Of a stretch of DNA of 64,000 bases, positions 2,340 to 21,502 are shown in pieces. The DNA lies in assembly GCF_003025005.1 (NCBI RefSeq), contig NZ_PVSS01000008.1, positions 124,001 through 188,000 on the forward strand, written 5' to 3'. Below the pieces are notes generated by a model. It saw only the letters and a program-made list of their open reading frames with translations, searched no databases and had not been told where the DNA came from. Made by a program: the position numbers and the translations under genes. Position 1 is the first letter of the stretch. Each line of letters begins with the position of its first letter. Origin of the DNA: Brumimicrobium mesophilum (GTDB lineage Bacteria > Bacteroidota > Bacteroidia > Flavobacteriales_D > Crocinitomicaceae).

Positions 2340-5300
2340 ATGAAATTGAGAAAATCATACATTCGAGATGGGCAAAAGGTTGTTTTAGAGGAAAGTCAAA
2401 CCCTTTTTGTGATAAGAACAAAAAATGGATTCAATCCTCACGAAATACTGTCTTTCTGCCTAGAAGACAATAGTTGTGTCTATCACGAAGAGCTGGACAG
2501 CTTTCCAGAAGCAAGTGTGTGGATTTTTAAAATTAGCAAAGACAGCGGTAAAACGATTTCAGAATTTAAAGCAGAAGTCAATTCACAAGGACATCCACAA
2601 TTGGTTTTTATTGGTTCTGTATGGATAGATGTTGAAACAAAAAGATATCAATTATATACAGAAAATTTATTCATAAAATTTAAACCTGAATATTCAGCAG
2701 AAGTTTGTTTGAACTTATTGGAAAAATGGGATCTCAAGGTGAAAATCAAGCTAGAGTTTTCTGAAAACACCTTTTTTATTGAACCTAGAAGCTCTAAAAT
2801 AATTGACACTTTCAGCTGGACTGAAATATTAAATGCCAAAGCACAAGTTGAATCTTGCGAGCCAGAATTAATCGTCAAACGAAAGTCATTCAAAAGAATG
2901 AAGTCTGATTATATATTGGATCCAGACAGAAAATGGGCCAGTGAAGCAATTGGATTAGATAAAGCTTGGCAAGTGAGCAAAGGTAAAGGTGTAAAAGTTT
3001 GCATCATCGATGACGGAATTGATGTCGATCATCCAGCATTTAATAAACCCAACAAAATAATTGCTTCAAGAGATGTTTTGAGAGCAGATAATGCTGGAGC
3101 AAAACATTTGTTTAATTCTGAATTTCATGGAACGGCTTGCGCTAGTGTTGTGAGCTCAAGCGATTATCGTTCCTACGGAATAGCTCCAGAATCTCAATTA
3201 ATTGTAGTGAGAAGTAAAGGTTTAGGTTCCATTTTAGAATCAGAAGCCATTTATTGGGGTGTGAAACAAGGCGCTGATATTATTTCTTGCAGCTGGGGTC
3301 CGACCGATGGAGATATTGATGACCCTTCAGATGATAGGCCTTCTCACAGGTTACCAAAAGCTACACGATTGGCAATTGATTATGCGGTAAACGAAGGCAG
3401 AAATGGAAAAGGAACCTTGGTTTTCTTTGCGGCAGGAAATGGAAGTGAAGCAGTTAATTTAGATTCCTACGCTTCTTATCACAATGTTTTAGCAATTGGC
3501 TCAGTCAATAAAGAAAATAAACTTTCGAAATATTCTGATTTTGGAACGCCTTTGTTTTGCGTTTTTCCGAGCAGTGAAATTCAAAAAACAGGAAAGCAAT
3601 ACGAAACCATTTATGGAATAACCGTTGCCGATAGAATAGGATTGGACGGTTTTACGAAACAAGATTATTTTTCTCAATTTGGCGGCACATCTGCTTCTGC
3701 GCCCGGTGCTGCCGGTGTTGCAGCATTGGCATTGTCGGTTAATCCAAATCTTACAGCAGCAGAACTAAAAAGAATTCTCATCGCTTCTTGCAAAAAAATT
3801 GGCGATCCTGAATGTTATTCTAGCGAAGGATACAGCCAAGAATATGGATTCGGGCTATTGTGTGCAGACTTAACGATTCAAAATACATTAACTTTTTCAA
3901 AAACAAAAGAACTTATGAAAACTCCAAACACTCCAAAAGGATATGCGCTACACATTGGTGTGGACATTGCCGATCCAAAGGCATATTCGAATTTCCCAGC
4001 TTTAGATGGATGCGTAAAAGATGCCGAAGCGTTGCAAAAAATAACAAAGGCAGAAAATTTTGATGAAGTCATACTTTTGGCCAACGCAAATGCAAAAAGA
4101 AGCAGAATAAAACAGGCTGTCAAACAATTTGCAAGTTCAGCAAAATCAGGTGATTTAGTCGTTATTTCTTATGCCGGACATGGTAGTCAAATTGTGGATG
4201 AAGACGGTGATGAAGAAACAGGTTTCGACCAAGTTTTGATTACTTACGACGGAATGTTGATCGATGATGAAATCTATGAAATTTTTCTAGAATTTGCAGC
4301 TGGAGTAAGGGTTGTTTGGATTGGTGATAGTTGTCATTCTGATTCTCAAGTTAGGTTTTTCAATCTTGATCCCGATGCTCCAAAATACAGACAGTTAAAC
4401 CCCAATGATGCACAGGAATTTTTTGATAAAAACAAAGCAAGTTTCAGAACTATTTTAGACAGTTTAAAAAGAAATGGAAGACAAAATGCAAAAGCTTCTA
4501 TTTGGAGTATGTATGCTTGTAAAAAAACAGAATATGCAGCAGAAATTAAAGGCAGAGGATTATTTACTTCAGAAATTGAAAAACTGTATTATTCAGGAAA
4601 TATTTTAACGGTTGACGAAGCGAACAAAAGATTAAATCAACCTATTTCTCCCTCTCAAAATCCAGCGATTGAGTTTTTCGGTGGTGATTACAATTTGTTT
4701 AAAGGTGGAGCTTTTAAAATTGGGAATGTCGTGGTAGATTCTCAACCTATTGATGAGGTGCCCGACATAGCTGATCCAGTTGCAAATAGTGATGCTCAAG
4801 ATGAAACCCCACTTGCTAATTTAGAAACAACATTGTTGGTGACAACAGCAAAGGATAATTTAGAATTGATAGAAAATTCTAGAGGAATTGAATCTGATTT
4901 GAGTGCTGTTAGAGTTGCAAATTCAGAAGTGAATCTTTCGTCATTTACAGATGTGAAACCATGGGATAGTGCCTATCAATTTTATCATTCCTTGAAAAAC
5001 AAAAATGATGTAGATTTTATTGAACCAGACATTACCAGTGACATTTATAAAATTCATGACGAAGAGCTGCAAGGAAAACGCAGTGAAAATAAATATTTAG
5101 AGAGTTATCCAGATCCAGAACATGATAAATTCGATTCGATAAAAAATCCATTTATCTGGCATTTGGGAGATGAATATAGTCAGTTAAGAACAGCATTCGA
5201 ACAAATAAAAAAACGATTTAGAAATGGAGAACCAACTTTAGAGGAAAGAGAAGAACTTCCTTTAATTTGTCACATTGATACTGGAATTTTAGATGACCAT

Positions 5301-7829
5301 CCTGCGACTCCAAAATTCTTAGATTATGATAAATCGAGAACATTCAGAAGCATAGGTAAGAAAAAAGACATTACAGATTACGATTCGAAAACTGCGCTCA
5401 TTGAAAACCAAGGGCACGGACAAGGAACAATTTCCATTCTAGCAGGAAATTATGTTAATCTTTCCGATACTGATAATTCATTTAAAGGATATTATGGCGC
5501 TTTTCCTTTTGCTAGGGTGATGTCGCTTAAAATTTCGGAAAATGTGGTGTTACTTTCTGGGAATAAATTTGCTCGAGCGTTGCGATACGCGGTAGATTCT
5601 GGTTGTGATGTTGTAACAATGTCTATGGCTGGTGCGCCAACAAAAGCGATGGTTCGTGCAATAAATTATGCCTATGAAAAAGGTGTAATTGTGGTCTCAG
5701 CCGCCGGAAATAGTTGGGTAGAAGGAGGACGAAAATTGTTGCCAGAAAAAACAATGTATCCAGCAAGATTCAATAGGGTTATTGGAGTTACGGGGGCTAC
5801 ACTAGATTACACACCATATTTAGTGAAGGAAAATGAAAACTGGAGAATAAAAACGCGAGATACTGGAGGTAAATTCATGCAAACATGTTTTGGTCCAGAA
5901 GCCTCAAGCAGAACAAATATGGCAGCTTACACTCCTAATGTTCAATGGGCGAGCAATTTTAAAAACAATAGTTTTTTTGATAAAAGTGGAGGCGGAACAT
6001 CTTCTGCAACGCCTCAAGTTGCTGCGGCAGCTGCAATGTGGTTGTACGAACACCGCGAAAGCCTGAACCAAATTTTGAATGGGAAACGTGATTGGCAAAG
6101 AGTCGAAATGGCAAGGCATGCGCTTTTTTCTACAGCCAAGAAAAGTGAAACGAGTGACTACAACGCGGTTTTTGGAAACGGAATGTTGAAAGCATTGGAC
6201 GCATTGGAGATTACACCTCAAAAAGCAAAGTCGAAAATTAAAAAAGAAGCAGCTGACGACATAGGTTGGAGTGGCTTGGATGATTTGTTCAACTTGTTGC
6301 GCAACAGAAGTTTTGCTCCTGAGGAAAATGACTTAATTAAAGAAATGGTGCAAACAGAAATTGCGCAACTTACATGTATCGATCCTGCATTCTTTGATTT
6401 TACTGAAGAATCCACTTTGGATGACATGGGAGAAGCGATTTTGCAAAGCGATAAAGCATCAGATTATTTAAAATCTTTAGCCCGTCAAAATGCCGAAATA
6501 AAACTTCCGAAATCTGAACGAAGTGAAAGTGGTTTAGGAAATGATGTTTATGTTTCTGCCAGATTAAAAACAGATAATGACGGTGAATATCACATCAATG
6601 CTGAAGGATGCGCTTTTGAATTGATCGAGCAAAAAGCGGAGGATGATGCTTTATATGCAGAATATGAGTTGGTGGTTAGTCCAATTGTTACAAGAAGTGT
6701 TGCTTTACCGAAAATAAATTTCTTACGTAATTTTGAGGCCAGTCCTGCTGTTATTGTTACAGATTATGATGACGGAACAAAACACTATCAATGGATTATA
6801 GAAGAAGAACCAGAAGAAGGAAAAAGAGGATTTAAGTCTCTTGGACTTCAAAATAACGCCTTTGTTCTTGATGTCGATATTTATAAAACAAGAGGAAAAG
6901 GAAGAATTAAGCGCTTCTTTATTAAAATATTTAGAACGGTAAAAGATGAGGCGCTTTCTTCACGTCCAGGATTGATTGCTGGACATATTTCAAATGGAAA
7001 ATTTACTTGGGTTGAAAGAACGGCTGCGATTGATAAAAAAATTGAGCAACAAAAAAGAACACTTTTGCTGCTGCATGGAACATTTAGTTCTGCCGAAAAT
7101 TCATTTGCTAATTTGCTGGAACGACCAGAATTTTTCAGTGAAATGGAATCAAAAGGTTTCGGAAAATATGTTTTGGCGTATAACATGAGCACCATTCGTT
7201 CAAGTGTAGAAACCAATGCAAAAGAACTGCACAAAGCATTAAAACCATTGAAAATTTATTCTAAAACGAGTACAACGATAGAAGTTATTGCATCAAGTAG
7301 AGGTTGTTTGGTGGCCCGTAGAGCATTCGGAAACAAGACTAAAATGGCGCTAATTGCAGGAACACATTTAGGAACACCTTTGGCTTCTGCGGAACATCTT
7401 TCTTCATTGGTTAATCGTGTAAGTAATTTGGCAGCGATTTCACTTTCTGCGCCTGTTTTTACCGGATTTTTAAAAGGAATGAGCATTATTGTAAAATTAG
7501 TGTTCAAGGCCAAAGGAATTGCTGATCAAAGCGAAGAATCTTTAGAAATTAGGTATTTGGCGAAAACACCCTTAAACGAAAAGCAAAAAGTATTTGGATC
7601 CAACTTCGAGCCTGACGAGAAAATGTTGAAGCAACTAGGCGACGCAGCAGTGGATAAATTAATTTTTAGAAACCGCGAAAACGATGGTGTCACTTTAACT
7701 GATAGCGCTTTAATTAATGAAGGTCAGGGATCACATGAGCCATTTTACAGAGTAAGCGATGGTGGAACAAGTCACTTTGGCTTCTTCAGAAATGATGAGG
7801 TGATAGAAGAGATTTTAAAGCACTTTTAG
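2340..7829 (+). CDS. Four-enzyme fusion: subtilase - caspase-like - subtilase - alpha/beta-hydrolase
   Basis: This 1829-residue protein has no signal peptide, so it is probably cytoplasmic. Residues 1-100 are beta-rich; about 105-190 resemble an I9-type subtilisin prodomain. The first S8 domain (about 195-515) has Asp224 (IIDDG), His263 (FHGTACA), oxyanion Asn367 (AAGNG) and Ser451 (GGTSASAP); its SWGPTDGD block is kexin-like. A caspase/metacaspase-like domain (about 530-780) has His614 (YAGHGS), an acidic DEDGDEE stretch like the metacaspase calcium site, and Cys665 (GDSCHS). A linker and second prodomain-like segment (FIEPD) lead to S8 domain two (about 940-1290): Asp980 (HIDTG), His1026 (GHGQGT), Asn1124 (AAGNS), Ser1221 (GGGTSSATP). 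The C-terminus (about 1560-1829) is lipase-like: HGTF at 1579 and a nucleophile elbow A-S-S1653-R-G, with His1799 or His1812 as candidate base. The gene is monocistronic. The domain calls are secure. The role is unknown; a self-activating proteolytic effector or stress response is inference. Confidence 0.9.
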   Translation: MKLRKSYIRDGQKVVLEESQTLFVIRTKNGFNPHEILSFCLEDNSCVYHEELDSFPEASVWIFKISKDSGKTISEFKAEVNSQGHPQLVFIGSVWIDVETKRYQLYTENLFIKFKPEYSAEVCLNLLEKWDLKVKIKLEFSENTFFIEPRSSKIIDTFSWTEILNAKAQVESCEPELIVKRKSFKRMKSDYILDPDRKWASEAIGLDKAWQVSKGKGVKVCIIDDGIDVDHPAFNKPNKIIASRDVLRADNAGAKHLFNSEFHGTACASVVSSSDYRSYGIAPESQLIVVRSKGLGSILESEAIYWGVKQGADIISCSWGPTDGDIDDPSDDRPSHRLPKATRLAIDYAVNEGRNGKGTLVFFAAGNGSEAVNLDSYASYHNVLAIGSVNKENKLSKYSDFGTPLFCVFPSSEIQKTGKQYETIYGITVADRIGLDGFTKQDYFSQFGGTSASAPGAAGVAALALSVNPNLTAAELKRILIASCKKIGDPECYSSEGYSQEYGFGLLCADLTIQNTLTFSKTKELMKTPNTPKGYALHIGVDIADPKAYSNFPALDGCVKDAEALQKITKAENFDEVILLANANAKRSRIKQAVKQFASSAKSGDLVVISYAGHGSQIVDEDGDEETGFDQVLITYDGMLIDDEIYEIFLEFAAGVRVVWIGDSCHSDSQVRFFNLDPDAPKYRQLNPNDAQEFFDKNKASFRTILDSLKRNGRQNAKASIWSMYACKKTEYAAEIKGRGLFTSEIEKLYYSGNILTVDEANKRLNQPISPSQNPAIEFFGGDYNLFKGGAFKIGNVVVDSQPIDEVPDIADPVANSDAQDETPLANLETTLLVTTAKDNLELIENSRGIESDLSAVRVANSEVNLSSFTDVKPWDSAYQFYHSLKNKNDVDFIEPDITSDIYKIHDEELQGKRSENKYLESYPDPEHDKFDSIKNPFIWHLGDEYSQLRTAFEQIKKRFRNGEPTLEEREELPLICHIDTGILDDHPATPKFLDYDKSRTFRSIGKKKDITDYDSKTALIENQGHGQGTISILAGNYVNLSDTDNSFKGYYGAFPFARVMSLKISENVVLLSGNKFARALRYAVDSGCDVVTMSMAGAPTKAMVRAINYAYEKGVIVVSAAGNSWVEGGRKLLPEKTMYPARFNRVIGVTGATLDYTPYLVKENENWRIKTRDTGGKFMQTCFGPEASSRTNMAAYTPNVQWASNFKNNSFFDKSGGGTSSATPQVAAAAAMWLYEHRESLNQILNGKRDWQRVEMARHALFSTAKKSETSDYNAVFGNGMLKALDALEITPQKAKSKIKKEAADDIGWSGLDDLFNLLRNRSFAPEENDLIKEMVQTEIAQLTCIDPAFFDFTEESTLDDMGEAILQSDKASDYLKSLARQNAEIKLPKSERSESGLGNDVYVSARLKTDNDGEYHINAEGCAFELIEQKAEDDALYAEYELVVSPIVTRSVALPKINFLRNFEASPAVIVTDYDDGTKHYQWIIEEEPEEGKRGFKSLGLQNNAFVLDVDIYKTRGKGRIKRFFIKIFRTVKDEALSSRPGLIAGHISNGKFTWVERTAAIDKKIEQQKRTLLLLHGTFSSAENSFANLLERPEFFSEMESKGFGKYVLAYNMSTIRSSVETNAKELHKALKPLKIYSKTSTTIEVIASSRGCLVARRAFGNKTKMALIAGTHLGTPLASAEHLSSLVNRVSNLAAISLSAPVFTGFLKGMSIIVKLVFKAKGIADQSEESLEIRYLAKTPLNEKQKVFGSNFEPDEKMLKQLGDAAVDKLIFRNRENDGVTLTDSALINEGQGSHEPFYRVSDGGTSHFGFFRNDEVIEEILKHF

Positions 7830-8064
7830 AAGATTTGATTAGGATTTATGGCGGATAATTACTTTTTAGGCTGAGTTTTGAGATCGGTCTTTGGATGCAT
7901 GTTGACTATAAAGGTAGTGTTATAAATTGATGCTTTTCCTTAGCGAAAAGTGTAAATGATTCTCTTTTTACACCTAATATTGACTAAATCAAGCATTATA
8001 TACAGCAATACTTAACGTAAATAAGTTTTGTATTTTTTTGTGAATTTGGAGACAAATGGTTTTT

Positions 8065-8072
8065 TAGTTTTG
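8065..8072 (+). promoter_or_regulatory. Bacteroidota -7 promoter box for the OmpA-like gene
   Basis: TAGTTTTG matches the TAnnTTTG consensus exactly. A TTG lies at 8046-8048, about 16 bases upstream, which fits the -33 element. The start codon follows 28 bases downstream. Confidence 0.55.
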
Positions 8073-8100
8073 TTAAACTGTATTAAGAAAAAATAAAAAA

Positions 8101-8961
8101 ATGAATATATTTAAATCGATTGCTGTATCAAGTTTATTTGGAATTTTTATACTTTCATCTTGCGCACCAATATATAAATGTGGCGATCCAATTCCTGAGA
8201 AAAAGCCATCAGGAAAAAGAATACAAGCTGTAATTTCGGAAAGAGATAGTCTTTGTACAGATTTGGCTCAAGAAAAACAAACTACGTCAAATTTAAGAGC
8301 AGATAAAGTTGTTTTGGAGAAAAAACTTTCAACACAACAAACTATTAATTATGACCAAGCAGATCAGTTTGGGAAAGCTTTGCAGGAAAAATCAGAGGCT
8401 TTGGAAGAGCAAGAAAAATTGTTGAAAGATAGAGAAGCAACCTTGAGAGAATTGCAAGATATCATAGCAAGGAAAGATGCAGTAACCAAAAAACTAAATG
8501 ATGTTTTGAGAAATGCTTTGTTAGGGTTTAATTCTGATGAGCTTTCAATTGATATTATAGATGGTAAAGTGTATGTGTCACTTTCGGATAAACTTTTGTT
8601 CCGATCTGGTAGTGCTGCGGTAGAAACTAAAGGTACGGAAGCCCTAAAAGTTTTGGCTGAAGTATTAATTAAAAATCCAGACATTGATATTTTGGTGGAA
8701 GGGCACACGGACAATGTTCCAATTAAAACAGCGATTTATAAAGATAATTGGGATTTAAGTGTAGCTAGAGCAACTGCGATCACTCGGATTTTAACAGAAA
8801 CGAATGGGGTAAATGCAAAAAGAGTTGTCGCATCTGGAAGAAGCGAATTTTATCCAAAGGCTACAAATGAAACAGCGGAAGGTAGAGCGAAAAACAGAAG
8901 AACTGAAATCATTCTATCTCCAAAATTAGATGAAATGTTTGAGTTATTGAAAGGTAATTAA
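8101..8961 (+). CDS. OmpA-family peptidoglycan-binding lipoprotein
   Basis: The 286-residue product begins with a lipoprotein signal ending ILSSC, with the lipidated Cys at residue 21. Residues about 45-135 are a charged coiled coil (Glu/Lys/Gln-rich heptads). The C-terminal 130 residues form an OmpA/MotB-type domain. Its motifs VEGHTDNVPI, LSVARA and the final AEGRAKNRRTEI carry the Asp and Arg that bind diaminopimelate in peptidoglycan. It should tether the outer membrane to the cell wall, with the coiled coil as spacer. Such proteins are common in Bacteroidota as cell-shape or envelope-stability factors. It is a single gene with its own promoter, downstream of the protease fusion and facing the beta-lactamase gene. 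Assignment to the family is firm; a specific partner is not visible. Confidence 0.9.
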   Translation: MNIFKSIAVSSLFGIFILSSCAPIYKCGDPIPEKKPSGKRIQAVISERDSLCTDLAQEKQTTSNLRADKVVLEKKLSTQQTINYDQADQFGKALQEKSEALEEQEKLLKDREATLRELQDIIARKDAVTKKLNDVLRNALLGFNSDELSIDIIDGKVYVSLSDKLLFRSGSAAVETKGTEALKVLAEVLIKNPDIDILVEGHTDNVPIKTAIYKDNWDLSVARATAITRILTETNGVNAKRVVASGRSEFYPKATNETAEGRAKNRRTEIILSPKLDEMFELLKGN

Positions 8962-8997
8962 TTCAAAGTAGAGCCTGGCGTTTGGTATCTTGTATTT

Positions 8998-9006
8998 GTT
9001 TATAAC
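8998..9006. repeat. 9-bp direct repeat, copy 1 (downstream of beta-lactamase)
   Basis: GTTTATAAC occurs here and again at 9921-9929, bracketing the beta-lactamase gene. This copy is about 80 bases past the beta-lactamase stop codon, the distance expected for a recombination site trailing a gene cassette. Confidence 0.4.
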
Positions 9007-9086
9007 GTTTTCGCAACATACGAGTTGGTGCTTTAACCGATTCTCTAATTGCGATCTTCAGCTAGTTGGGTATTGGTGGAATATGG

Positions 9087-9914
9087 TTATTTAAATGCTC
9101 CTATTTCTATCAATGCTTCTTTGGTGACAGTTTTTCGGAGCTCAATTAACTTGTCCAAATTGGTTTCTTCACCAGGTTCAATGTTTGTTGCGAAATAATA
9201 AAATCCATGATCATTTTCAACAAAACCTACATACCATAAGTTATTTTTATCGTTCACTACGGACCAACCAGTTTTGCCACGTAAAGTGTATTCTTTATTA
9301 TCTTCGATAATCATTAATCTGCGCATAATTGTATGCGTTCTTTTTGAAATTGGAAGCCTTTGTTCATTAAATATCTTTAAGAAAGATATTTGTTGAAATT
9401 GACTAATTCTTGACTTTCCTTGCAGCCAAAACATATCCAAATTTGTGCTGTCAAAAATCATCTTCCCGTAGTTCATTTTGTTTAAATAGGTTTTCATACG
9501 TTGAACTCCAATGGTTCTAGCAATTTCCTGATAACATGGTACACAAGAATAATGAAACGCTTCTTTGAATGATAAATCTTGCTCCCATCTTTTTTGAAAA
9601 CGAGACTTGCCGTCCCACTTGATTATTGTGCTGTCATTTCCAACAATACCAAGTTCAATTGCAATTATTGAGTTAGGAATTTTGAATGTGGAAGCAGGTA
9701 GATAACCCTTTTTGGACAATTCGAAGTCATTCGAGTAATATTTATTTTCATTCCATATGAGGATAGATCCTTTAATACCCGCTTCATCTAATATAGTCTG
9801 AAATTCTTCTTTGATTATTTCTGGGTTTTCATTCTGATCAGTATCAATATTTGACTTTGATTCTTGATTGCAGGCTCCAAGAATGCATAAGAATAGAATA
9901 AATATGTACTTCAT
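9087..9914 (-). CDS. Class D (OXA-type) beta-lactamase, lipoprotein
   Basis: I chose the ATG at 9914, giving 275 residues, because the protein then opens with a clean lipoprotein signal ending ILGAC (Cys15). An upstream in-frame ATG at 9950 would put 12 unlikely residues before it. All class D motifs are present: the active-site Ser75-T-F-K78 in PASTFK, Ser123-Cys-Val125 (S-x-V), Trp163-Leu-Gln-Gly and Lys214-Thr-Gly216. In this family Lys78 is carbamylated and acts as general base to hydrolyse penicillins and sometimes carbapenems. The lipid anchor would keep it at the membrane. A LecA-like gene lies upstream on the same strand. Identical 9-bp repeats flank the gene. I cannot name an OXA number or predict the spectrum from sequence alone. 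Confidence 0.92.
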   Translation of the reverse strand: MKYIFILFLCILGACNQESKSNIDTDQNENPEIIKEEFQTILDEAGIKGSILIWNENKYYSNDFELSKKGYLPASTFKIPNSIIAIELGIVGNDSTIIKWDGKSRFQKRWEQDLSFKEAFHYSCVPCYQEIARTIGVQRMKTYLNKMNYGKMIFDSTNLDMFWLQGKSRISQFQQISFLKIFNEQRLPISKRTHTIMRRLMIIEDNKEYTLRGKTGWSVVNDKNNLWYVGFVENDHGFYYFATNIEPGEETNLDKLIELRKTVTKEALIEIGAFK

Positions 9915-9920
9915 AATGTG

Positions 9921-9929
9921 GTTTATAAC
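9921..9929. repeat. 9-bp direct repeat, copy 2 (just before the beta-lactamase start)
   Basis: This is the second GTTTATAAC copy, in the same orientation as copy 1. On the coding strand it ends only 6 bases before the beta-lactamase ATG, as in integron-type cassettes, where the boundary sits close to the start codon. Confidence 0.4.
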
Positions 9930-9969
9930 TGTAAGCGAATTTCTTTGCATTGAAAATCGTCAAAATATT

Positions 9970-10356
9970 TTATAGTTTTCGTTTAACTAGTAATGTTAGA
10001 TGCCCAAAATTATTCCAATAAAATCCTTTAGCATCATTGGCAAAGCAAAAGAGTGTTCCATTCTCATTAAAAGAAATGTTATTATTTTTTCCAATGAGAA
10101 AATACTTGTCTTCATTTTTATCCAAAGATCCCATCAATGCAAACCACAAATATGGTTTTGCTCTTTTTTTAGGGTCAAATAACTGCATGTATTTATTAGT
10201 ATAACCGTCAGCGTCTGTTTTTCTGATAAAATCCGTCCACTTGCCTGTTGCTATAAATTCATATTCTTCGCCTTCTGAAATTTCAATTTGCGTGGAATTC
10301 CACTTACACTTTGCTCGTATTTGAACTTCTATGGTTTCGTTTACTTGTAGTTTCAT
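9970..10356 (-). CDS. LecA/PA-IL-like beta-sandwich protein
   Basis: Starting from the ATG at 10356 gives 128 residues; a TTG at 10416 would add 20 residues and looks less likely. The order of features matches the PA-IL/LecA lectin-like beta-sandwich: a Trp-Asn-Ser-Thr opening, an EGEEYEFIATGKW strand, a central WFALMGSLD block, a YFLIGKN strand, a LFCFANDAKGFYWNNFG turn, then a final LTLLVKRK strand. In P. aeruginosa LecA the equivalent late Asn/Asp residues bind calcium and galactose. Here the FANDAKGFYWNNFG segment is similar, but sugar binding is not proven. There is no signal peptide. It lies 55 bases upstream of the beta-lactamase on the same strand, inside a patch with recombinase debris. 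Confidence 0.6.
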   Translation of the reverse strand: MKLQVNETIEVQIRAKCKWNSTQIEISEGEEYEFIATGKWTDFIRKTDADGYTNKYMQLFDPKKRAKPYLWFALMGSLDKNEDKYFLIGKNNNISFNENGTLFCFANDAKGFYWNNFGHLTLLVKRKL

Positions 10357-10533
10357 CTCTTTATGAATTGAAGGATTCTTACCAGTGCTGTAAAAATTGG
10401 CGTTACTCAAAACCAACCTGTACCTTTCAATCCAAATTTAGCGATTATATTGGACTTTAAGTGCTCTCAATTGAACAACTGCGAATTATAGCTTTCTCTT
10501 TGTGGCATTATTCCTACTGCGCTCTAAATATGA

Positions 10534-10746
10534 CTAAATATTAAGGACGTTTTTATCATTTTCTAAAAGGTGTATTGCGAAGCTATGTCTTGAAATATGT
10601 AGTCCACCATTATTCTTTATTACTTCTATTTTAGCTCCATTGCTAATGATATACAAAAGGCTTGATGAATTAAAATGATTTCCATTTTTAAGATATTTCT
10701 TCGGTTTCTATTTTCGAAATGGACTATCTATTATAAAACTTCTAAT
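10534..10746 (-). pseudogene. Decayed tyrosine recombinase (integrase) fragment
   Basis: Reading the minus strand gives a fragment containing PFRK, a stop at 10708-10710, then KPKKYLKNG, a serine-rich stretch, ISNGAKIEVI and finally LHISRHSFAIHLLENDKNVL before a stop at 10534. The H-x-x-R-H-S-F-A-x-H-L-L-E block is the catalytic His-x-x-Arg box of phage-type/Xer integrases, and KPKKYL is typical of the Bacteroidota branch. The N-terminal domain, the first catalytic Arg region and the C-terminal LGH and Tyr segment are missing, so this is a non-functional relic. It marks a former mobile element beside the beta-lactamase and LecA-like genes. The rest of this 510-base gap (10357-10866) shows no other coding content. 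Confidence 0.7.
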
Positions 10747-10854
10747 TCATTCTTTAAAAACAACACTATTCTAACCATTTACAAAAAAAACTATTTATCC
10801 ACCTACACCATAAATTTATTTTATCTTCGTTCTTATAATTAAAAGTAAGTTAAG

Positions 10855-10862
10855 TAGCTTTG
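10855..10862 (+). promoter_or_regulatory. -7 promoter box 4 nt before the start codon
   Basis: TAGCTTTG fits TAnnTTTG exactly and ends 4 bases before the ATG at 10867. If used, the transcript would begin at or next to the start codon. Confidence 0.45.
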
Positions 10863-10866
10863 CATC

Positions 10867-12144
10867 ATGATGAAACACACCTTTTTCTTTCTTCTGTTTT
10901 TTCAGTCCTTCTTTATTTTCGGACAAGAGGCGTATAATAATTGCGCTGATGCTTTTGAATTGTGTCCTAACTCTTCTTTTACCTTGAATAATATTGATGC
11001 AAATTCAACTGTTTGTGCCAATTGTGAAGATGACTTTAATTTTTGTTTTGCGGGAGAAAACACCATTTGGATGACATTTACTACCAATGATTCAGGTGGT
11101 GATGTTGATGTGAATTTTTCGAATATCGTATTTCAAAATAATCCTGGACAAGGAAATGGACTGCAAGCAGCTTTAATTTCCGCTCCACTTCCATGTATTT
11201 CTTCTTCCTACAATTTGATTTCAAATTGTGAAGCCAATGGAACAACAAATTTCGCTTTGAATTCACTTTCTCTTCCTCCAAATTCAACTTTTTATGTCGT
11301 TGTGAATGGAACAATGGGCGCTTCTTTGAACGCGGAAGCAACTTTTGATATCAGTATTTCAGGGACAGGTGTGGTGAGAACTCCGCAAATTATGATTGAA
11401 GCAGATACCAATGTTATTTGCGTGGGAGAAAACGTTGTTTTTAATGCTACGATTACCGATTGCGATGAGCAGTTGGTGTTTAATTGGTATGCCAATGGTG
11501 TTTTAATAGGCACAACTGTAGATCCAAATTTTGAATCTCAACAAATTTCAAATGGTGATGTAATTACTGCTGAGATGGTTTGTTTCACTCAATGTCAAGA
11601 TACTATTGCTAGTAATTCAATCACTTTTACAGTTTTTGATTTCCCAGTTGATGCAGGACCAGATCTATACATTAAACAAGGAGAAACTATTCAACTTCAA
11701 GGATATACAAGTGAGTTAATCTTCAATTGGAGTCCTAATTACAATATGAGTAAAACCACTGTTCTTGACCCATTCGTGAATCCTGAAGTTACAACTATTT
11801 ATTATTTGAAGGCAAGTAGCAGTAAATGTTCCAAAATTGATGAAATGACCGTTTTTGTTGAAGAAGGACTTGAAATTCCCAATACATTTTCGCCTAACGC
11901 TGATGGTATAAATGACTTCTGGGAGATTTTAGGTATAGAATTTTTTCCAAATTGTAATATTCAGGTTTATAGTCGATGGGGCCAATTGGTTTTTCAAACT
12001 ACCGGCTATTCACCTAATAAATTTTGGGATGGAAATACACAGGGAGGAAGAAATTTGGCTGCAGGAAGTTATTATTATGTCATAGACTTGAGAGACGATA
12101 ACTTCGATGAACCATTCAAAGGAACAGTTACAATTGTAAGATGA
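10867..12144 (+). CDS. Secreted protein with type B (gliding-motility-associated) C-terminal domain
   Basis: The product is 425 residues. Residues 1-19 are a signal peptide ending IFGQ. A Cys-rich beta-sandwich follows (NNCADAFELCP opening, about 21-170). An Ig/PKD-like region (about 175-330) contains DAGPDLYIKQGETIQLQG, a pattern common in Bacteroidota adhesins. The last 90 residues (from about 336) start IPNTFSPNADGINDFWEI and contain SRWGQLVFQT and WDGNTQGG. These are the hallmarks of the CHU_C/TIGR04131 domain that directs secretion by the type IX system and attachment to the cell surface. The stop codon overlaps the start of the PorP/SprF-like gene by 4 bases, so the two are translationally coupled. 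Type B cargo and SprF-type partners are known to work in pairs. Ligand unknown. Confidence 0.88.
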   Translation: MMKHTFFFLLFFQSFFIFGQEAYNNCADAFELCPNSSFTLNNIDANSTVCANCEDDFNFCFAGENTIWMTFTTNDSGGDVDVNFSNIVFQNNPGQGNGLQAALISAPLPCISSSYNLISNCEANGTTNFALNSLSLPPNSTFYVVVNGTMGASLNAEATFDISISGTGVVRTPQIMIEADTNVICVGENVVFNATITDCDEQLVFNWYANGVLIGTTVDPNFESQQISNGDVITAEMVCFTQCQDTIASNSITFTVFDFPVDAGPDLYIKQGETIQLQGYTSELIFNWSPNYNMSKTTVLDPFVNPEVTTIYYLKASSSKCSKIDEMTVFVEEGLEIPNTFSPNADGINDFWEILGIEFFPNCNIQVYSRWGQLVFQTTGYSPNKFWDGNTQGGRNLAAGSYYYVIDLRDDNFDEPFKGTVTIVR

Positions 12145-13067
12145 GAAAATTCGCATTACTTCTAATCTTAATTCTTTCCTTCACAGGATGGAGTCAGCAA
12201 ACCACTCAATATTCGCAATGGTCTTTTAACCAGTTTGCAATAAACCCAGCCTTGGCAGGAGTAAAAAACTGTTTAGAAGTAAGAACAGCCGTTCGTGCAC
12301 AATGGGCAGGTTTTGATGGCGCTCCAACAAGTGGCTTGTTCACAATTAATGCTCCTTTAAAGAAAAAGAAGAAATATTATTATGACTCATTTCATGGTTT
12401 AGGAGCCAAAATAGAACGTGATGTTTTCGGTCCTTTTAATAACTTCGCACTAACTATAGCTTATGCCTTGCACTTTCCCCTTGGGGATCATCATCGAATA
12501 AGTTTTGGACTGTCTGGAGGGCTTCAACAATTTGCATTCGATCAAACTCAAGTTACCACAATCGACCCTGATCCAGCTGTAGCCCAATCATCGAATCAGA
12601 TGCTGTTTCCATTAATCGGCGCTGGAGTTTGGTACAATTCGAAAAACTACTATATTGGTGGAGCTATTGATCAATTTTTAGGAAGTAAATGGGAAGATAT
12701 AGGATATGCTTCAAGATTCAGATTACATACTAAAATTCAAGCAGGAACAAAATTTACATTTTCCAATAAAACATCTTTATTACCTGGCGTTTTAGTTCGT
12801 TTCCCTCCTGCTGGACCAGTCAGTTTTGATCTTAATTTGATGTTAGATTTTCAAGATAATTTCATGGTTGGAATTGGATACAGAAATACAGACGCACTAA
12901 TAGGGTTTTTAAAACTCAACATTAAGAAATTTACAATTGGTTATAGTTTCGATTATATAACTTCTGCAATTCGAGGAGGAAATTTCCATACACACGAAAT
13001 TTCATTGCAATTTAGTGGCTGTAAAAAAGAAAAACGAGCGTTCAATGCTTGTCCTTTGTTTGAGTAG
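12141..13067 (+). CDS. PorP/SprF family type IX secretion outer-membrane protein
   Basis: The 308-residue protein has a signal peptide ending GWSQ and the family's N-terminal signature YSQWSFNQFAINPALAG. Repeated amphipathic strands rich in Gly and aromatics follow, as in a 14-strand-type barrel (for example KNYYIGGAIDQF and DNFMVGIGYRNTDALIG). PorP/SprF proteins sit in the outer membrane and help secrete or retain specific type B CTD cargo; SprF is needed for SprB in Flavobacterium johnsoniae. The ATG overlaps the stop of the preceding CHU_C protein (ATGA), so that protein is the likely cargo. The C-terminal Cys-containing tail is short. The family call is strong; the cargo pairing is inferred from gene order. 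Confidence 0.9.
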   Translation: MRKFALLLILILSFTGWSQQTTQYSQWSFNQFAINPALAGVKNCLEVRTAVRAQWAGFDGAPTSGLFTINAPLKKKKKYYYDSFHGLGAKIERDVFGPFNNFALTIAYALHFPLGDHHRISFGLSGGLQQFAFDQTQVTTIDPDPAVAQSSNQMLFPLIGAGVWYNSKNYYIGGAIDQFLGSKWEDIGYASRFRLHTKIQAGTKFTFSNKTSLLPGVLVRFPPAGPVSFDLNLMLDFQDNFMVGIGYRNTDALIGFLKLNIKKFTIGYSFDYITSAIRGGNFHTHEISLQFSGCKKEKRAFNACPLFE

Positions 13068-13467
13068 TTTTTTAATAATATCCTATCATTAGAGAATTAA
13101 GCTAATTTTGAAATCATCTGTCCATTGAGGATAAAAAAGAGATTCCTCCATCACTAAAAATCATAGCGCCTCTCCTAAATCCGTCTTCCTGACAGAGCAT
13201 TGCAACGAAGAATCTCTTTTTTTACTCTTAAATCAATTTTTAGATTGCAACTCTAGACCAAATGACTATCAGATTTTTTCTGATGTAACCAATTTTTTCT
13301 AATAAAAATCATGGCTAAATTTTCGCTCAAATCTACACAAAATTACCCCCGTTAAACCTTTATCATCAAAAACCCTTATCTATATCAATTATAAATAAGT
13401 GAAAAATGAGCTATAAATCAAAGTAACCTTTATTTTTGCTATCTATAATAGAAATATAAAAATAATT
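13068..13467. other. Intergenic region with a long-loop hairpin
   Basis: This 400-base gap has no coding frame. A 13-bp inverted repeat, AAAAAAGAGATTC at 13133-13145 and its complement at 13211-13223, encloses a 65-base loop and ends in a T-run, so it may end the PorP/SprF transcript. The last 60 bases carry the sdhC promoter. Confidence 0.5.
13431..13438 (+). promoter_or_regulatory. -7 promoter box of the sdhCAB operon
   Basis: TATTTTTG fits TAnnTTTG and lies 29 bases before the sdhC ATG, leaving a leader of roughly 20 bases. No clear TTG is seen at the -33 position. Confidence 0.5.
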
Positions 13468-14151
13468 ATGAGCAAATCTGGTTTATTTAAATCATCAATA
13501 GGAAGGAAATTTGCAATGGCGTTATCGGCATTGTTCCTTATGATTTTCCTTTTACAACACCTTGTTATCAACATAACAGCCGTTATTAGTCCAGACACTT
13601 TTAACGAATTATCACACTTTATGGGGACAAATCCACTGGTGCAATTCTTTGCGCAGCCAATTTTGATTTTCGCAGTAGTTTTTCACTTCGTGATGGGATT
13701 CATTCTTGAAATTCGAAATAGAACAGCTAGACCGGTTTCTTACAACAAGTTCAATGGTTCTGCAAATTCTACTTGGATGTCGAGAAATATGATCATTTCA
13801 GGTTTGGTGATTTTAGCTTTTTTAGTGCTTCACTTTATTGACTTTTGGTTTCCAGAAATCAACACAAAATATATCGTGGGTGATACATCAGGACTTCACC
13901 ATGGAGAATACAGATATTATCCAGAGTTATTGGCAAAGTTTGCAAATCCAGCTAGAGTTATCGCATATATCGTTGCTTTCGTTCTTTTGGCTTTGCACTT
14001 AATGCACGGTTTTGGTTCTGCATTCCAATCAATGGGACAGAACAACAAATACATTGATGGATTAAAAAAATTCGGAGTTATTTATTCAATTGCAGTTCCT
14101 TTAGGATTTATCCTTATTGCAGTTGTACTTTATGTAACGACATTAAACTAG
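13468..14151 (+). CDS. sdhC: Succinate dehydrogenase/fumarate reductase cytochrome b subunit
   Basis: The 227-residue membrane subunit has five hydrophobic helices (about 15-40, 60-80, 110-130, 165-188, 205-225). This matches the single-subunit diheme b-type (B-type SQR/QFR) anchors of Bacteroidota rather than paired SdhC/SdhD anchors. Conserved histidines at helix positions (LLQHLVINI, FHFVMG, VLHFIDF, LHLMHGFGSAFQ) are the likely heme b ligands. It binds menaquinone and anchors SdhAB to the inner membrane. It is the first gene of sdhCAB, with 6 bases before sdhA, and has its own promoter box. The identification is secure; direction of use (oxidation or fumarate reduction) cannot be decided from sequence. 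Confidence 0.95.
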   Translation: MSKSGLFKSSIGRKFAMALSALFLMIFLLQHLVINITAVISPDTFNELSHFMGTNPLVQFFAQPILIFAVVFHFVMGFILEIRNRTARPVSYNKFNGSANSTWMSRNMIISGLVILAFLVLHFIDFWFPEINTKYIVGDTSGLHHGEYRYYPELLAKFANPARVIAYIVAFVLLALHLMHGFGSAFQSMGQNNKYIDGLKKFGVIYSIAVPLGFILIAVVLYVTTLN

Positions 14152-14157
14152 TAGGTT

Positions 14158-16161
14158 ATGACAAATATAGATGCAAAAATACCAAGTGGTGCGTTAAAAG
14201 ATAAATGGACTAACCACAAAAACAATATTAATTTAGTTAACCCAGCAAACAAGCGTTTAATTGACGTAATTGTTGTAGGAACTGGACTAGCTGGAGGATC
14301 TGCTGCAGCAACATTAGCTGAGTTAGGATACAATGTAAAAGCATTCGCATTTCAAGATTCACCAAGACGTGCGCACTCGATTGCGGCTCAAGGGGGAATC
14401 AATGCAGCAAAAAATTATCAAGGAGATGGAGATTCAATCTATCGCTTGTTTTATGATACAGTAAAAGGTGGTGATTACCGTTCTAGAGAGGCTAACGTTT
14501 ATCGTTTGGCTGAAGTTTCGGCAAATATTATTGACCAATGTGTGGCTCAAGGAGTTCCTTTTGCACGTGATTATGGTGGATTATTAGATAACCGTTCTTT
14601 TGGAGGGGTTTTGGTATCACGTACTTTCTACGCGAAAGGTCAAACAGGACAACAATTATTGTTAGGAGCTTATTCTGCAATGAATCGTCAAATTGGTCGT
14701 GGAAAAATTAAAATGTACAACCGTCACGAAATGATGGATGTTGTTTTAGTTGACGGAAAAGCGAGAGGAATTATTGCCCGTGATTTAGTTACAGGTAAAG
14801 TTGAACGTCACAGTGCTCATGCTGTTGTAGTTGGTTCTGGTGGATATGGTAACGTATTCTTCTTATCAACTAATGCAATGGGAAGTAACGTTTCTGCAGC
14901 TTGGAAGATCCACAAAAAAGGAGCATATTTTGCAAATCCATGTTTCACTCAAATTCACCCAACATGTATTCCAGTTGCAGGTGAACTACAAGCGAAACTA
15001 ACGTTGATGTCGGAATCTTTAAGAAACGATGGACGTATTTGGGTTCCTAAAAACATGGAAGATGTTAAGGCAATTAGAGCTGGTCAATTAAAACCAACTC
15101 AACTTTCAGAAGATAAAAGAGATTATTATTTAGAGCGTCGCTACCCAGCATTTGGTAACTTAGTTCCTCGTGATGTTGCATCTCGTGCGGCTAAAGAGCG
15201 TTGTGATGCTGGATATGGTGTTAATCAAACTGGACAAGCAGTATATTTAGATTTCGCTTCTGCGATTGAGCGTTACGGAAAAGAAACAGCGCACGTACAA
15301 GGTTTAAATGAAAATGATCAAGCACTTGTCACTAAATTAGGAAAAGAAGTTATCGCAAATAAATACGGGAACCTTTTCCAAATGTATGAGAAAATCGTTG
15401 ATGAGAATCCATATGAATCTCCAATGATGATTTATCCTGCAGTTCACTACACAATGGGTGGAATTTGGGTTGACTACAACTTAATGACAACTGTTCCTGG
15501 ATTATATGCAATTGGAGAAGCTAACTTCTCAGATCACGGAGCTAACCGTTTAGGAGCTTCTGCATTGATGCAAGGATTGGCAGATGGATATTTCGTATTG
15601 CCTTACACAATTGGTGATTACTTATCTAATGATATTCGAACAGGAACAATTCCAACTGATCATCCAGCATTTGCTGATGCTGAGAAAGAAGTAATCGAAC
15701 GTTTAGATCACTTAATCAATAATAAAGGAACTAAATCAGTGGATAATTTCCACAGAAGATTAGGTCATATTATGTGGGAGAAATGTGGAATGGCCCGTAA
15801 TAGACAAGGTTTAACAGAGGCTATTTCAGAAATCCAAGCATTGCGCGACGAATTCTGGAAAGATGTAAAAGTTCCTGGAGGAAGAAATGAATTCAACGAA
15901 GAATTAGCTAAAGCTGGAAGAGTTGCAGATTATCTAGAGTTAGGTGAATTGTTCGCCAAAGATGCTTTACTTAGAGAAGAATCTTGTGGAGGTCACTTCA
16001 GAGAAGAATCACAATCGGATGAAGGTGAAGCTAAGCGTGATGATGAGAACTTCAAATATGTTGCTATGTGGGAATACACAGGTAAACCTGCTGATGCCAT
16101 CCTTCACAAAGAAGATCTAGTTTACGAGAACATTGAACTTAAAACTAGAAGCTACAAATAA
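14158..16161 (+). CDS. sdhA: Succinate dehydrogenase/fumarate reductase flavoprotein subunit
   Basis: The 667-residue catalytic subunit oxidises succinate to fumarate (or the reverse). A Rossmann FAD motif, [17 protein letters not shown], lies near residues 40-57. The following [13 protein letters not shown] carries the His that binds FAD covalently in this family. The substrate-site region includes [10 protein letters not shown] and, later, [12 protein letters not shown] and the flavin-contacting [18 protein letters not shown]. The C-terminus has the helical domain typical of the longer Bacteroidota/epsilon-type flavoproteins. It is cytoplasmic and attached through SdhB to SdhC. It starts 6 bases after sdhC. 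No irregularities were found. Confidence 0.97.
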
Positions 16162-17191: not shown

Positions 17192-20100
17192 TTAATCAAC
17201 CTTCGGCAATCGAATATAAAAAGTCGTTCCGCTCCCTATATCCGATTCAAACCAAATCTCCCCATTGTGGTTGTTAATGATTTGTTTCACCATGGCCAAT
17301 CCTAAGCCCGACCCGGTTGTCTTTGTCGTGAAATTAGGTGAGAACATTTTTTTCTGAATTTCAATTGGAATTCCTGCTCCTTGATCATGAACTGAGACAA
17401 TATAATGATCTTCATCTGTGGTGAATGCAATCGTAATTCGCGTTAAACTTTTCTCTGGAGTTGCTTGAATTGCATTTTTTATAAGGTTATTAAATACCCG
17501 AATAATTAAATCTTTATCCGCGAAAATTATCCAGTCTTTATCTCTGTCTACTATAACTTCTATGAGCACTTTGTTTGATGAATAAAGGTCCACGATGTTA
17601 TGGAGAATTGGAATCAAATTTAGTTCTTCTTCATTGGCTTTTGGCATTTTGGCAAAGTTTGAAAACTCATTAGCAATCTTTGTCAATGCATCTATTTGCT
17701 CAATTAATGAGTTAGCAATGCGCTGCATTTTATCTTTTGCATTAGGGTCATTCACATCAAATGAACGTTGGAAATGCTGCACGCTCAACTTCATTGGAGT
17801 CAATGGATTTTTAATCTCATGTGCCACTTGTTTGGCCATTTCTCTCCAAGCAGTTTCTCTTTCACTTTTCGCCAATTGCATCGCTTTCAATTCAAGCTCA
17901 ATCAGCTTATTGTTATAGTCTTTTACCAATGCTCCAATTTCATCATTACCAGTATAAGCAATAGGCTTATTTTCTTTGCCCAGCTCCACCTTTCTAAAAC
18001 TTTGCTGAATCAGTCTTAATGGAGCTGTAATCCAACCCGAAACGAAAATTGCAACTACAACAGTAATTACGAGTAGTAAAACAGCAATGTTAATTACCGC
18101 AACAATAAAATCATTCATTTGATTCTCAAAAGCATTTTGCTTTGAAAAATGTTGCAGATTGATGTAGCCCAATAACTTTCTCTCATGATTTTTATACGGT
18201 AAATAAGCAGACAAAAAGGAAAGTTCTCCTATTTCTTCCAAATGAATAAACTCACTTCTTTCATTATATTTCATTGCGTAAAACGCCTTATTATTCATTT
18301 GATTAGTACTTAATCCTTTATCATAAATTTTAGGTTGAGAAGTTGCAAATAACTTACCATCTAATCCATAAAAGTTAATATCCGTTACAAAAACATTTGA
18401 AAACTTCTTCAGAATATAATTTACATAATCTCCATTAATTGAAGGTTCTAGAATTTTCTTTTCACCTATTTTTTGATCAATTTCAATATGCACTGAATAG
18501 ATTTTTTCTTTAAGGTTATCTGTGGTGTAAACACTATATTGTCGTGTTACATTTTGGATGGCCACATATGCAAAAACCACAAATGACCCTACCACCATTC
18601 CAATTAAAACAACTTGAACCTTGAGAGAAAGCTGCCAATATTTTAATGGAAAAATAGAAGACCAATTGAATATTAATAAAACAATTGAAGCATAAATACC
18701 AAAGAAAAGCACCAAATAAGAGAATGTACTTAATTGCTCAATAAAACGCTTTTCTGGTTTTGAAATTACTGCAGATTGACCGTCTTCTTGTTGGTAAATG
18801 AGATGATTCATTCCTTCAATGGTTGTAAAACCAGATTGAGTTCCAAATTGTTTTTGGAAAAAACTCATTTTAGTAGGATAGTTGTAATCTCCAAAACGCA
18901 TAACTAATCTTCCATTGGAGTATCGCGCTATGGAATAATCTTCTAGATCTTGAAGAGCATATGATTTCTCATTCATCAACAACCTAGGAAAACCAATTTG
19001 CTCTGGAATTTTCTTAGACTTAAAAATTATATAAAAATCAAGTTTTGAGTTGTCTGAAAGTGTAATCTCTCTTCGCCCGATATAACTAATTTGGTCATAA
19101 TAATCATTCACAAAATATAATTCTTTCGCAATTGATGATTTATTAGAATGCACATCAATTAAATGATCAATTTCTTCTTTGGTTTTTGATTGATTGGAAA
19201 TGTAATCCATTAATGGTGTTCCATCTGGACGAAAAAAGAAAAAACTCATTTCATATCTTTCCCAAAATTCTCCGAAACAACAATTTTCTATTTCATTTGA
19301 AAGATTTGGAGTAGAAAAAAGATCTGTTTCACTAACTAACTTATTAAAATTCGGATTTTCGATCAACTTATTCAATGTCGATTCATATTCAATTTCCATG
19401 TTAGGATCTTGATCAGTAATCAACTGATTAGCATACAACTCCCTCTTTTGATGCTCGTTAGATTCATTGTTTTCAAAAAGAATAACAGCCCCATAAAACC
19501 CAATAACTATCACAATAGCAATGTGATATTTCAACGCGTTTAATCGGTGATTTTTGGTGGCTAAATAAAAGAACAACGCATTCAATAAAACGGGCCAAAG
19601 TGCGTTAAAAATATTTTTTTGAACATAAACTATTTCAATAAAAACAAAGATAATTCCACTGATAAACCAAAAAATAGCCAGGCGATTAAGCGGAATATTC
19701 GACCGAATTAATTTGATACTGATTTGCCTAACTAAAAGATAATATGCTAAGAACAAAGACGAAATAATGATCAAAGCAATTACTGAATAAAGTGATAAAG
19801 AAAAAACCTCATCAATCACCAGTGATATGGAACTATTGATAATTAATGATTCAAATATGTAACTAATTAATGCTGAGAAAACCAATAAAGACAAATAAGA
19901 AACTACCAACACCAGCGTACCTCTGCGGGTATCCTCCTTTAAAATCCCTAGAAAATATAAGACCCACCAAATAACAATTGCAGTAATAATTAGTGTGAGG
20001 ATTAAACTACCTAAATTGGGAATCAAACTATTATTGGCATATAAAATGGGATCATAAAGTTCAAATTCTCTAAATAAATTTATCCAACCGAACTCAATAG

Positions 20101-20842: not shown

Positions 20843-20848
20843 TACAAA

Positions 20849-20856
20849 CAAAACTA
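20849..20856 (-). promoter_or_regulatory. -7 promoter box 6 nt before the kinase start codon
   Basis: On the minus strand TAGTTTTG fits TAnnTTTG and ends 6 bases before the ATG at 20842. This implies a near-leaderless transcript independent of udk. Confidence 0.45.
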
Positions 20857-20882
20857 ACTATTTTCAAAGAATATAGAGTAGA

Positions 20883-21500
20883 TTACTTCCCTTTTGGAAG
20901 AATAGGTTCTAAAACTCCTGTCAAACGTAGAAAGTCATTTTCTGAACGGCTATCGTTGTGATATATAAAGTCAGCCTTGGTTTCATGTGGAGCAAGGAAG
21001 GAATTATAACAAGGAATTACGTGATTATCCCATTGATACATTATTTCAGAACGGGAATAGCCCCTAGATTCTTGATCTCGGTAAATTCTTCTGTCCAATT
21101 GAATCGCCGGGTCTACATCTACAAAAATACTGAAGTCTAATAATTCACGAACCTCTTCATATTCAAAAACAAAAAGACCTTCAACAATTAATAATGGAGA
21201 AGGTTCAAGTGTAATCAAAACATTTCTATTGTTACCCGCATTGAATTGATATTCAAAAACTTCAATACTTTTACCACCAACTAATCTTGTTAAATCTTTA
21301 ACTAAACGTTCTTTATCTAAAGCAGTGGGCAAATCGAAATTCACTTTTCCATTTGTGTCTAAAGATTGTTCTTCGATAGGTTTATAGTAATTGTCCATGG
21401 AGAAAACCGTAGGACTATATTCCTCATAATATTCTGCCAAACGGTTTAATAAAGTTGTTTTTCCTGAGCCACTTCCTCCACAAATTCCTATAACCTTCAT
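20883..21500 (-). CDS. udk: Uridine kinase
   Basis: The 205-residue P-loop kinase phosphorylates uridine and cytidine in pyrimidine salvage. Walker A GGSGSGKTT is at residues 8-16. The uridine kinase signature SMDNYY follows near residue 39. A lid/base region contains VDVDPAIQLDRRIYRDQESRGYS, where the Arg pair contacts the phosphate and ribose. The length matches the family. It starts 2 bases after the stop codon of an upstream secreted-protein gene, so the two are probably one transcript. The sensor kinase follows 40 bases downstream with its own promoter box. No unusual features. Confidence 0.93.
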   Translation of the reverse strand: MKVIGICGGSGSGKTTLLNRLAEYYEEYSPTVFSMDNYYKPIEEQSLDTNGKVNFDLPTALDKERLVKDLTRLVGGKSIEVFEYQFNAGNNRNVLITLEPSPLLIVEGLFVFEYEEVRELLDFSIFVDVDPAIQLDRRIYRDQESRGYSRSEIMYQWDNHVIPCYNSFLAPHETKADFIYHNDSRSENDFLRLTGVLEPILPKGK

Positions 21501-21502
21501 GC

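Follow-up and report, generated by a model that had tools for sequence, protein, structure and literature searches.

Two subtilases, a caspase-like peptidase, and a lipase-like hydrolase on one chain in Brumimicrobium mesophilum: a rare Bacteroidota family and its probable LecA-like lectin partner

What would two subtilases, a caspase-like peptidase, and a lipase-like hydrolase accomplish on a single polypeptide? The question is raised by a gene at positions 2340 to 7829 (+ strand, as are all parts of the protein given below) of a 64,000-nucleotide stretch of Brumimicrobium mesophilum DNA, here called the window. A sequence-only reading of this DNA had suggested a self-processing cascade in a conflict or cell-death setting, and we followed it up with profile searches, family alignments, structure models, and neighborhood comparisons.

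Architecture and distribution of the four-enzyme protein

The gene is a single open frame from ATG to TAG encoding 1829 residues, as the sequence-only reading had stated, and the four enzyme domains it had claimed were all recovered by Pfam above the curated cut-offs. They follow the order S8 - C14 - S8 - DUF7379, with Peptidase_S8 (E 1.2e-64) in two stretches, Peptidase_C14 at residues 547-775 (E 8.7e-16), and the alpha/beta-hydrolase domain DUF7379 at residues 1575-1724 (E 2.7e-21, 76.8 bits against a gathering cut-off of 33). The letters of the nine catalytic residues already named (D224/H263/S451, H614/C665, D980/H1026/S1221, and S1653) were all correct. On the basis of a Pfam match, an Asp/His/Ser triad, and an oxyanion-type Asn, both the first S8 domain (residues 215-504, positions 2982-3851, D224/H263/N367/S451) and the second (residues 915-1300, positions 5082-6239, D980/H1026/N1124/S1221) are subtilases. 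The C14 domain (positions 3978-4664) has the Pfam match, the H614/C665 dyad, and the acidic residues at putative S1 positions (C558/D561/D663) of a metacaspase-like (C14B) sequence. In the lipase-like hydrolase (residues 1575-1829, positions 7062-7826), the likely partners of S1653 are D1782 and H1812, which were invariant in a three-member alignment and kept, as read by eye from the nine-member alignment, in all eight members that reach that far.

The remaining parts of the chain are less well matched. The N-terminal region (residues 1-205, positions 2340-2954) gave no recurring Pfam match among nine members and its profile found nothing significant in the PDB (best E 0.64); a weak profile comparison related it (E 8.4e-5, probability 60%) to the corresponding region of an S8 protein from Leisingera that has a Fervidolysin_NPro-like match, suggesting that its second half (about residues 86-206) is propeptide-like. 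The stretch at residues 849-914 (positions 4884-5081), between two of the candidate cut sites described below, looks propeptide-like by eye in the alignment. For the C-terminal part, the profile matched only a putative lipase (E 0.02) and a Nesprin-1 chain (0.076) in the PDB, and the structural model was poor (pLDDT 54.9). A further feature considered, a cationic amphipathic helix preceding the hydrolase, was only partly supported: the best cationic 18-mer of the protein sits there in six of the nine members and the second best in one, the segment is absent by score in the window protein (P0001) and in L031, and at that place the model, poor as it is, shows a strand.

The four-domain frame is not a chance fusion, because the same order was found in other Bacteroidota genomes. 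A scan of GTDB species genomes with the three-member alignment returned 22 loci, ten of which belong to the family while the other 12 match mainly the first subtilase. The ten are all from Bacteroidota: Dyadobacter, Flavobacteriaceae, Aquimarina (two), Saprospiraceae (four), and genomes G240 (locus L028) and G103 (L029). With the window, the family thus comprises 11 loci, of which nine were aligned; L032, cut by a contig end, and L034, with a broken frame, were omitted. The L034 gene (Aquimarina agarilytica, positions 8947-14434) consists of a 1569-aa frame and a separate 162-aa hydrolase piece, reflecting either a pseudogene or a sequencing error. The nine members, 33-38% identical to the window protein, have invariant S8 triads, N367, N1124, C14 His and Cys, and hydrolase Ser. 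The architecture is real and conserved.

The family is rare and patchy within Bacteroidota. It was detected in three of 395 genomes at the class level, including the window's own, and at the phylum level two of 395 genomes matched, namely the window's own and G673 through its hydrolase. No relative of the C-terminal 1009 residues was detected at E 1e-12 in any of nine other genomes of the genus, and the window's own genome holds no second copy, just a weak subtilase match. A full-length search of 59 related genomes matched 12, and apart from the window's own genome the matches covered the first subtilase region only; a scan of genome contigs with the single protein as query returned no relative, and a search with the C14-hydrolase fusion of G673 matched, outside that genome and among the matches listed, the caspase part alone. 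Two scans of viral contigs contained no family member, and 12 phage records had subtilase matches covering 12-14% of the query. Plasmid matches were numerous (298 records), none of them covering 80% of the query, and the matching proteins in the five records examined have one S8 domain. Large proteins with only the second type of subtilase are encoded on Rhizobium and Methylorubrum plasmids (L019, L021, and L023), possibly as part of another protease system; in L019 and L021 the following gene matches or is annotated as an MBL-fold protein, and nearby annotations include peptidoglycan hydrolase, amidase, or DUF2235 genes.

In a tree of the second subtilase, the three Saprospiraceae rows are scattered and one joins Dyadobacter at 100/99, which points to horizontal spread of the family. 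An OmpA-type neighbor of the window gene was used as a synteny anchor; its homologues, found in all ten genomes of the genus, are at best 60% identical, so that no clean empty site was defined. The sequence-only reading did not know the combination as a named system; the literature searched, which included few subscription papers, held no description of the four-part protein, and the architecture appears to be undescribed in that literature.

Arg-[Gly/Ser] motifs in the linkers and the enzyme that may cut there

Three linkers follow the caspase domain (residues 790-874, 898-938, and 1301-1572), with mean pairwise identities of 18, 30, and 24%, compared with 34-53% for the catalytic parts. Across the nine members they contain 12, 9, and 52 R[GSA] motifs, respectively, where shuffled sequences predict 5.8, 2.5, and 21.7; the observed counts were reached in 11, 0, and 0 of 2000 shuffles per linker, a test that counts related sequences as independent. 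K[GSA] was not enriched in these linkers. A ranking of all dipeptides over the linkers together put RS (z 7.3) first and RG (z 7.1) second, followed by a third at z 4.3, whereas the pooled catalytic domains gave z 1.6 for RS and 0.6 for RG. Eight of the nine members were individually enriched at p<0.05, the remaining one being L028 (p 0.26).

Seven candidate cut sites were defined in the window protein, each given here with its position and the number of the nine members that have R[GSATN] within eight residues: R848-G (4881-4883; seven), R914-S (5079-5081; nine), R1323-S (6306-6308; nine), R1394-S (6519-6521; seven), R1452-S (6693-6695; nine), R1496-G (6825-6827; eight), and R1518-G (6891-6893; nine). 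The last of these lies before the cationic segment and the hydrolase, and the segment that follows it scores as cationic amphipathic in seven of nine members, the window protein not among them. On average, R[GSATN] occurs near the seven Arg sites in 7.29 of the eight other members, whereas no other residue followed by Gly or Ser exceeds 4.00. The results make it likely, in our judgment, that the Arg motifs are processing sites.

A rival account is that the motifs are structural loops and that the enzymes act unseparated, as a fixed machine for protein turnover or peptide maturation. It draws some support from two simpler C14-DUF7379 fusions, in G673 and G411, in which the R[GSA] excess is not significant (8 against 5.3, p 0.12; 13 against 15.0), and from the second subtilase, which is weakly similar to QhpE and PatA/PatG; these, like a mycosin match, are NCBIfam hits to the window protein, all of which fall below the cut-offs, and those to QhpE and PatA/PatG fall far below. 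Against it, the motifs recur in three separate linkers and not in the one that joins the first subtilase to the caspase (1 against 0.6 expected), and three plasmid proteins that have a related subtilase but no C14 domain show no Arg-motif excess. All five sites in the modeled C-terminal region fall in segments with pLDDT<50, although about half of that linker does so as well in this poor model. Nor was a precursor peptide or modifying enzyme recognized nearby in the general scans. We consider the fixed machine unlikely.

Several further results count against the processing reading. Taken alone, the C14 region also exceeds shuffles for R[GSA] (29 against 19.5), as does the hydrolase region (27 against 15.6), the latter partly because of its SRG elbow, and in the short stretch at residues 875-897 it is K[GSA] that exceeds them (9 against 2.6). 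In proteins that join DUF7379 to a CHAT peptidase, four of five linkers are without excess, the fifth being a C14-free linker in G411 (R[GS] 10 against 5.2, p 0.024). The separate subtilase of genome G789, described below, has Lys-Ser where site R914 would be.

The residues of the C14 domain bear on which enzyme would cut. Its best solved relative is GSU0716 (PDB 3bij), followed by metacaspases, with which it shares the DSCHS motif; it differs from them in being embedded in a four-enzyme chain. Kexin- and furin-type subtilases prefer a dibasic pair, and two of the seven window sites are dibasic (KR914 and KR1496), so that a subtilase could contribute. In a review of clan CD, Arg and/or Lys is given as the residue recognized by metacaspases and paracaspases, with C14B enzymes taking Arg/Lys at P1, and Cys92, Asp95, Ser156, and Asp211 are putative S1 residues of TbMCA2 (PMC4357240). 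When mapped by motif, with the displayed alignments being those to GSU0716 and to metacaspases 1 and 4, these positions correspond to C558, D561, A612, and D663 of the window protein, with C558, D561, and D663 showing no variation among the nine members. The C14 domain is thus our favored candidate for the cutter, with somewhat less assurance than we attach to the sites themselves. The self-processing put forward by the sequence-only reading has gained the linker Arg-[Gly/Ser] sites downstream of the caspase and the putative S1 residues as evidence; that the chain is cut, and cut by the caspase, we infer.

The LecA-like lectin and other neighboring genes

The neighbor comparison identified one recurrent gene across the family loci, which encodes a small PA-IL/LecA-like lectin. 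In the window, where the sequence-only reading had missed it, the gene occupies positions 9970-10416 on the - strand (148 aa from a TTG), although an ATG at 10356 (128 aa) seems the likelier start; the product has no signal-peptide-like start by eye. The lectin is present at eight of the ten loci with usable flanks and was not found within the available flanks of L026 and L027, L032 being a locus where its presence cannot be judged. Because L033 and L034 are close relatives, the count of eight holds seven well-separated cases. At seven of the eight lectin loci the gene is on the same strand as the large gene and either overlaps it or lies within 40 bases. The window lectin is instead on the opposite strand and not adjacent, about 2.1 kb off, with the OmpA-type gene and one resembling class D beta-lactamases in between; the score of the latter (positions 9087-9950, - strand) with the general class D model is 244.1 bits, where the cut-off is 250. 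We conclude that the lectin is very probably associated with the four-enzyme family.

The fold was assigned from profiles and a model. Among PDB entries, an eight-member lectin profile matched PA-IL lectins (best E 2.2e-5), and the AlphaFold model (pLDDT 81.4) matched EclA, LecA, and PllA best, with probability 1.00, E values from 5.4e-5, and TM scores of 0.49-0.56 by query length. The Pfam PA-IL cut-off was not reached; two of the eight members match, with a best E of 0.13. All eight keep the motif FAND...NN; LecA binds Ca2+ and galactose through residues of this kind.

The lectin family is uncommon (ten of 395 class genomes, three of 267 phylum genomes), and three of the ten class genomes are those with the four-domain gene. 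In G255 the lectin gene, with an in-frame TGA, stands beside genes for a DUF7379-LCAT-CHAT-TPR-S protein and TIR proteins. A BLAST comparison with the neighbor proteins collected gave no caspase, subtilase, or DUF7379 relative in the six other lectin-bearing class genomes, and several of these have lectin homologues with signal-peptide-like starts by eye. A LecA-like gene whose product lacks such a start lies 20 bases after a patatin-like gene (G502; L128, positions 6540-8911; 24.2 bits against a Pfam cut-off of 27.7), possibly forming a lectin-phospholipase pair. Genome G789, of another order, encodes a lectin 84% identical to that of the window over 134 residues; its gene comes first in a row, followed by those for a separate caspase and a second-type subtilase (38% identical to its window counterpart), with an HEPN_Toprim protein downstream. 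On this short contig, the row resembles part of the window system in split form.

DUF7379 itself was found in 12 proteins from 11 of 296 phylum genomes and in none of 14 control genomes. Nine of these proteins were scanned (those of G508, G563, and G629 falling outside the scan), and in eight the domain is joined to a caspase-clan peptidase: C14 in three (the window, G673, and one in G411) and CHAT in five (G255, G320, the other in G411, G625, and G649), with that of G493 standing alone. At L109 (positions 2710-8807), a C14-DUF7379 gene overlaps a CHAT gene by 4 bases. The window protein has no CHAT match in Pfam and so is not assigned to the Craspase or TPR-CHAT group.

Defense-type genes stand beside some relatives. 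The G240 locus has a weak alpha/beta-hydrolase match (18.6 bits, below the cut-off) and a caspase gene on one side, and on the other a helicase that scores 519.7 bits with the PADLOC SngC profile, SngC being part of the Shango defense system. For the window copy, no adjoining defense gene was recognized: PADLOC gave single-protein subtilase and caspase profiles only for the three window proteins submitted, Pfam identified no gasdermin, MoxR, vWA, or VMAP gene among the four neighbors scanned. No tRNA was found in the window. In Dyadobacter (L026), a PG_binding and CHAP protein (positions 18519-19307) is encoded two genes downstream of the family member.

The neighborhoods also bear on whether the protein is a weapon, carried as cargo by a contractile injection or other system into rival or prey cells and processing itself there. 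Injection cargo usually has no signal peptide, and none is obvious here, as the sequence-only reading had noted (the start is not hydrophobic, with a best 15-residue Kyte-Doolittle mean of 0.51); proteases and lipases are common toxin activities; and the L027 member lies about 3 kb from an eCIS-like cluster (positions 17831-23694) with a Pvc16 N-terminal domain and a tail sheath. Such proximity was noticed at only one of 11 loci in a look that was not systematic, two genes intervene there, and the four scanned neighbors of the window copy include no injection-system gene, so that we regard this account as improbable. An ordinary extracellular or housekeeping degradative enzyme is a very remote prospect: many Bacteroidota subtilases are secreted and some lectin homologues elsewhere have signal-peptide-like starts by eye, but no member has a strongly hydrophobic start (maximum 1.29 among the nine, by the same measure), the window protein has no sorting-tail match in Pfam, relatives are absent from the nine other genomes of the genus, and the gene tree is scattered.

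A possible self-processing chain in bacterial conflict

We put at about even the chance that the protein acts inside the cell as a zymogen of several enzymes that processes itself, a death polyprotein working with the small lectin. The computed basis of this zymogen reading consists of the domains, catalytic residues, conservation, lectin linkage, Arg-[Gly/Ser] motifs, and acidic residues at S1 positions; the reading also supposes a second propeptide (seen by eye), cutting by a particular enzyme, a substrate for the hydrolase, a role for the lectin and contact with its partner, a cellular location, and a biological outcome. Weighing against it are the simpler C14-DUF7379 fusions with no significant motif excess, the two dibasic sites that would also suit a kexin-type subtilase, the two loci whose available flanks gave no lectin, the non-adjacent lectin of the window, the failure to recognize a defense gene beside the window copy, PADLOC hits limited to single proteins, and the poor C-terminal model. 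In a resting cell all the enzymes would stay on the uncut chain, where a propeptide-like stretch would precede each subtilase. Upon a trigger, perhaps recognition of a glycan or Ca2+ by the lectin, the metacaspase-type C14 domain would cut after Arg in the linkers, at R848, R914, R1323, R1394, R1452, R1496, and R1518. Cutting at every site would leave the first subtilase joined to the caspase (1-848) and would separate residues 849-914, the second subtilase as a free enzyme (915-1323), four short pieces, and the hydrolase (1519-1829), whose new N-terminus would be cationic. Cell proteins and membrane lipid might then come under attack from the liberated protease and lipase-like enzyme, and the challenged cell would be killed or arrested.

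More tentatively, the chain may be a counterpart of an apoptotic cascade in one polypeptide, in which a lectin-triggered metacaspase cuts itself after Arg at about seven conserved sites, excises the propeptide of the second protease, and releases a membrane-directed lipase; one gene would then supply the initiator, executioner, and membrane effector in fixed ratio. A role in conflict or cell death has, in our estimate, slightly better than even prospects. The conflict setting proposed earlier is strengthened by the lectin partner, the joining of DUF7379 to C14 or CHAT, the defense-type genes beside some relatives, and the patchy distribution; cell death as the outcome is what we infer from these.

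Several known systems come close to this one. In VMAP (MoxR-vWA) systems, a caspase-superfamily domain is always accompanied by a neighboring alpha/beta-hydrolase gene (PMC7159879), the same pairing as here; the window protein differs in carrying both on one chain, together with two subtilases and the LecA-like lectin, and in having no MoxR, vWA, or VMAP gene among its four scanned neighbors. The DUF7379-CHAT proteins likewise join the same hydrolase family to a caspase-clan peptidase, and that of G255 has the same lectin family next door along with the TIR genes, but they have CHAT for C14, TPR-S in some cases, no subtilase, and the order hydrolase then protease. The System 3 NucA conflict systems can carry S8, trypsin, and a nuclease on one polypeptide, and a proteolytic cascade has been proposed for them, so that several peptidases including S8 stand on one chain as in the window protein; they differ in their nuclease effector and trypsin core, and the description consulted includes no caspase or lipase-like part (PMC7159879). 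Lectin-fold sensors of invaders have been proposed in bacterial conflict systems, and the NPCBM and FGS folds among them resemble the window system in tying a lectin-fold protein to effectors that include caspases, whereas the lectin here has the PA-IL/LecA fold (PMC8195603).

If the zymogen reading is true, the family would provide a protease-lipase death cascade encoded by one gene, with cut sites predictable from the sequence itself. The lectin-type sensors proposed for bacterial conflict would then include the PA-IL fold, and a role would be suggested for DUF7379, an unnamed domain that in most of the scanned proteins is joined to a caspase-clan peptidase.
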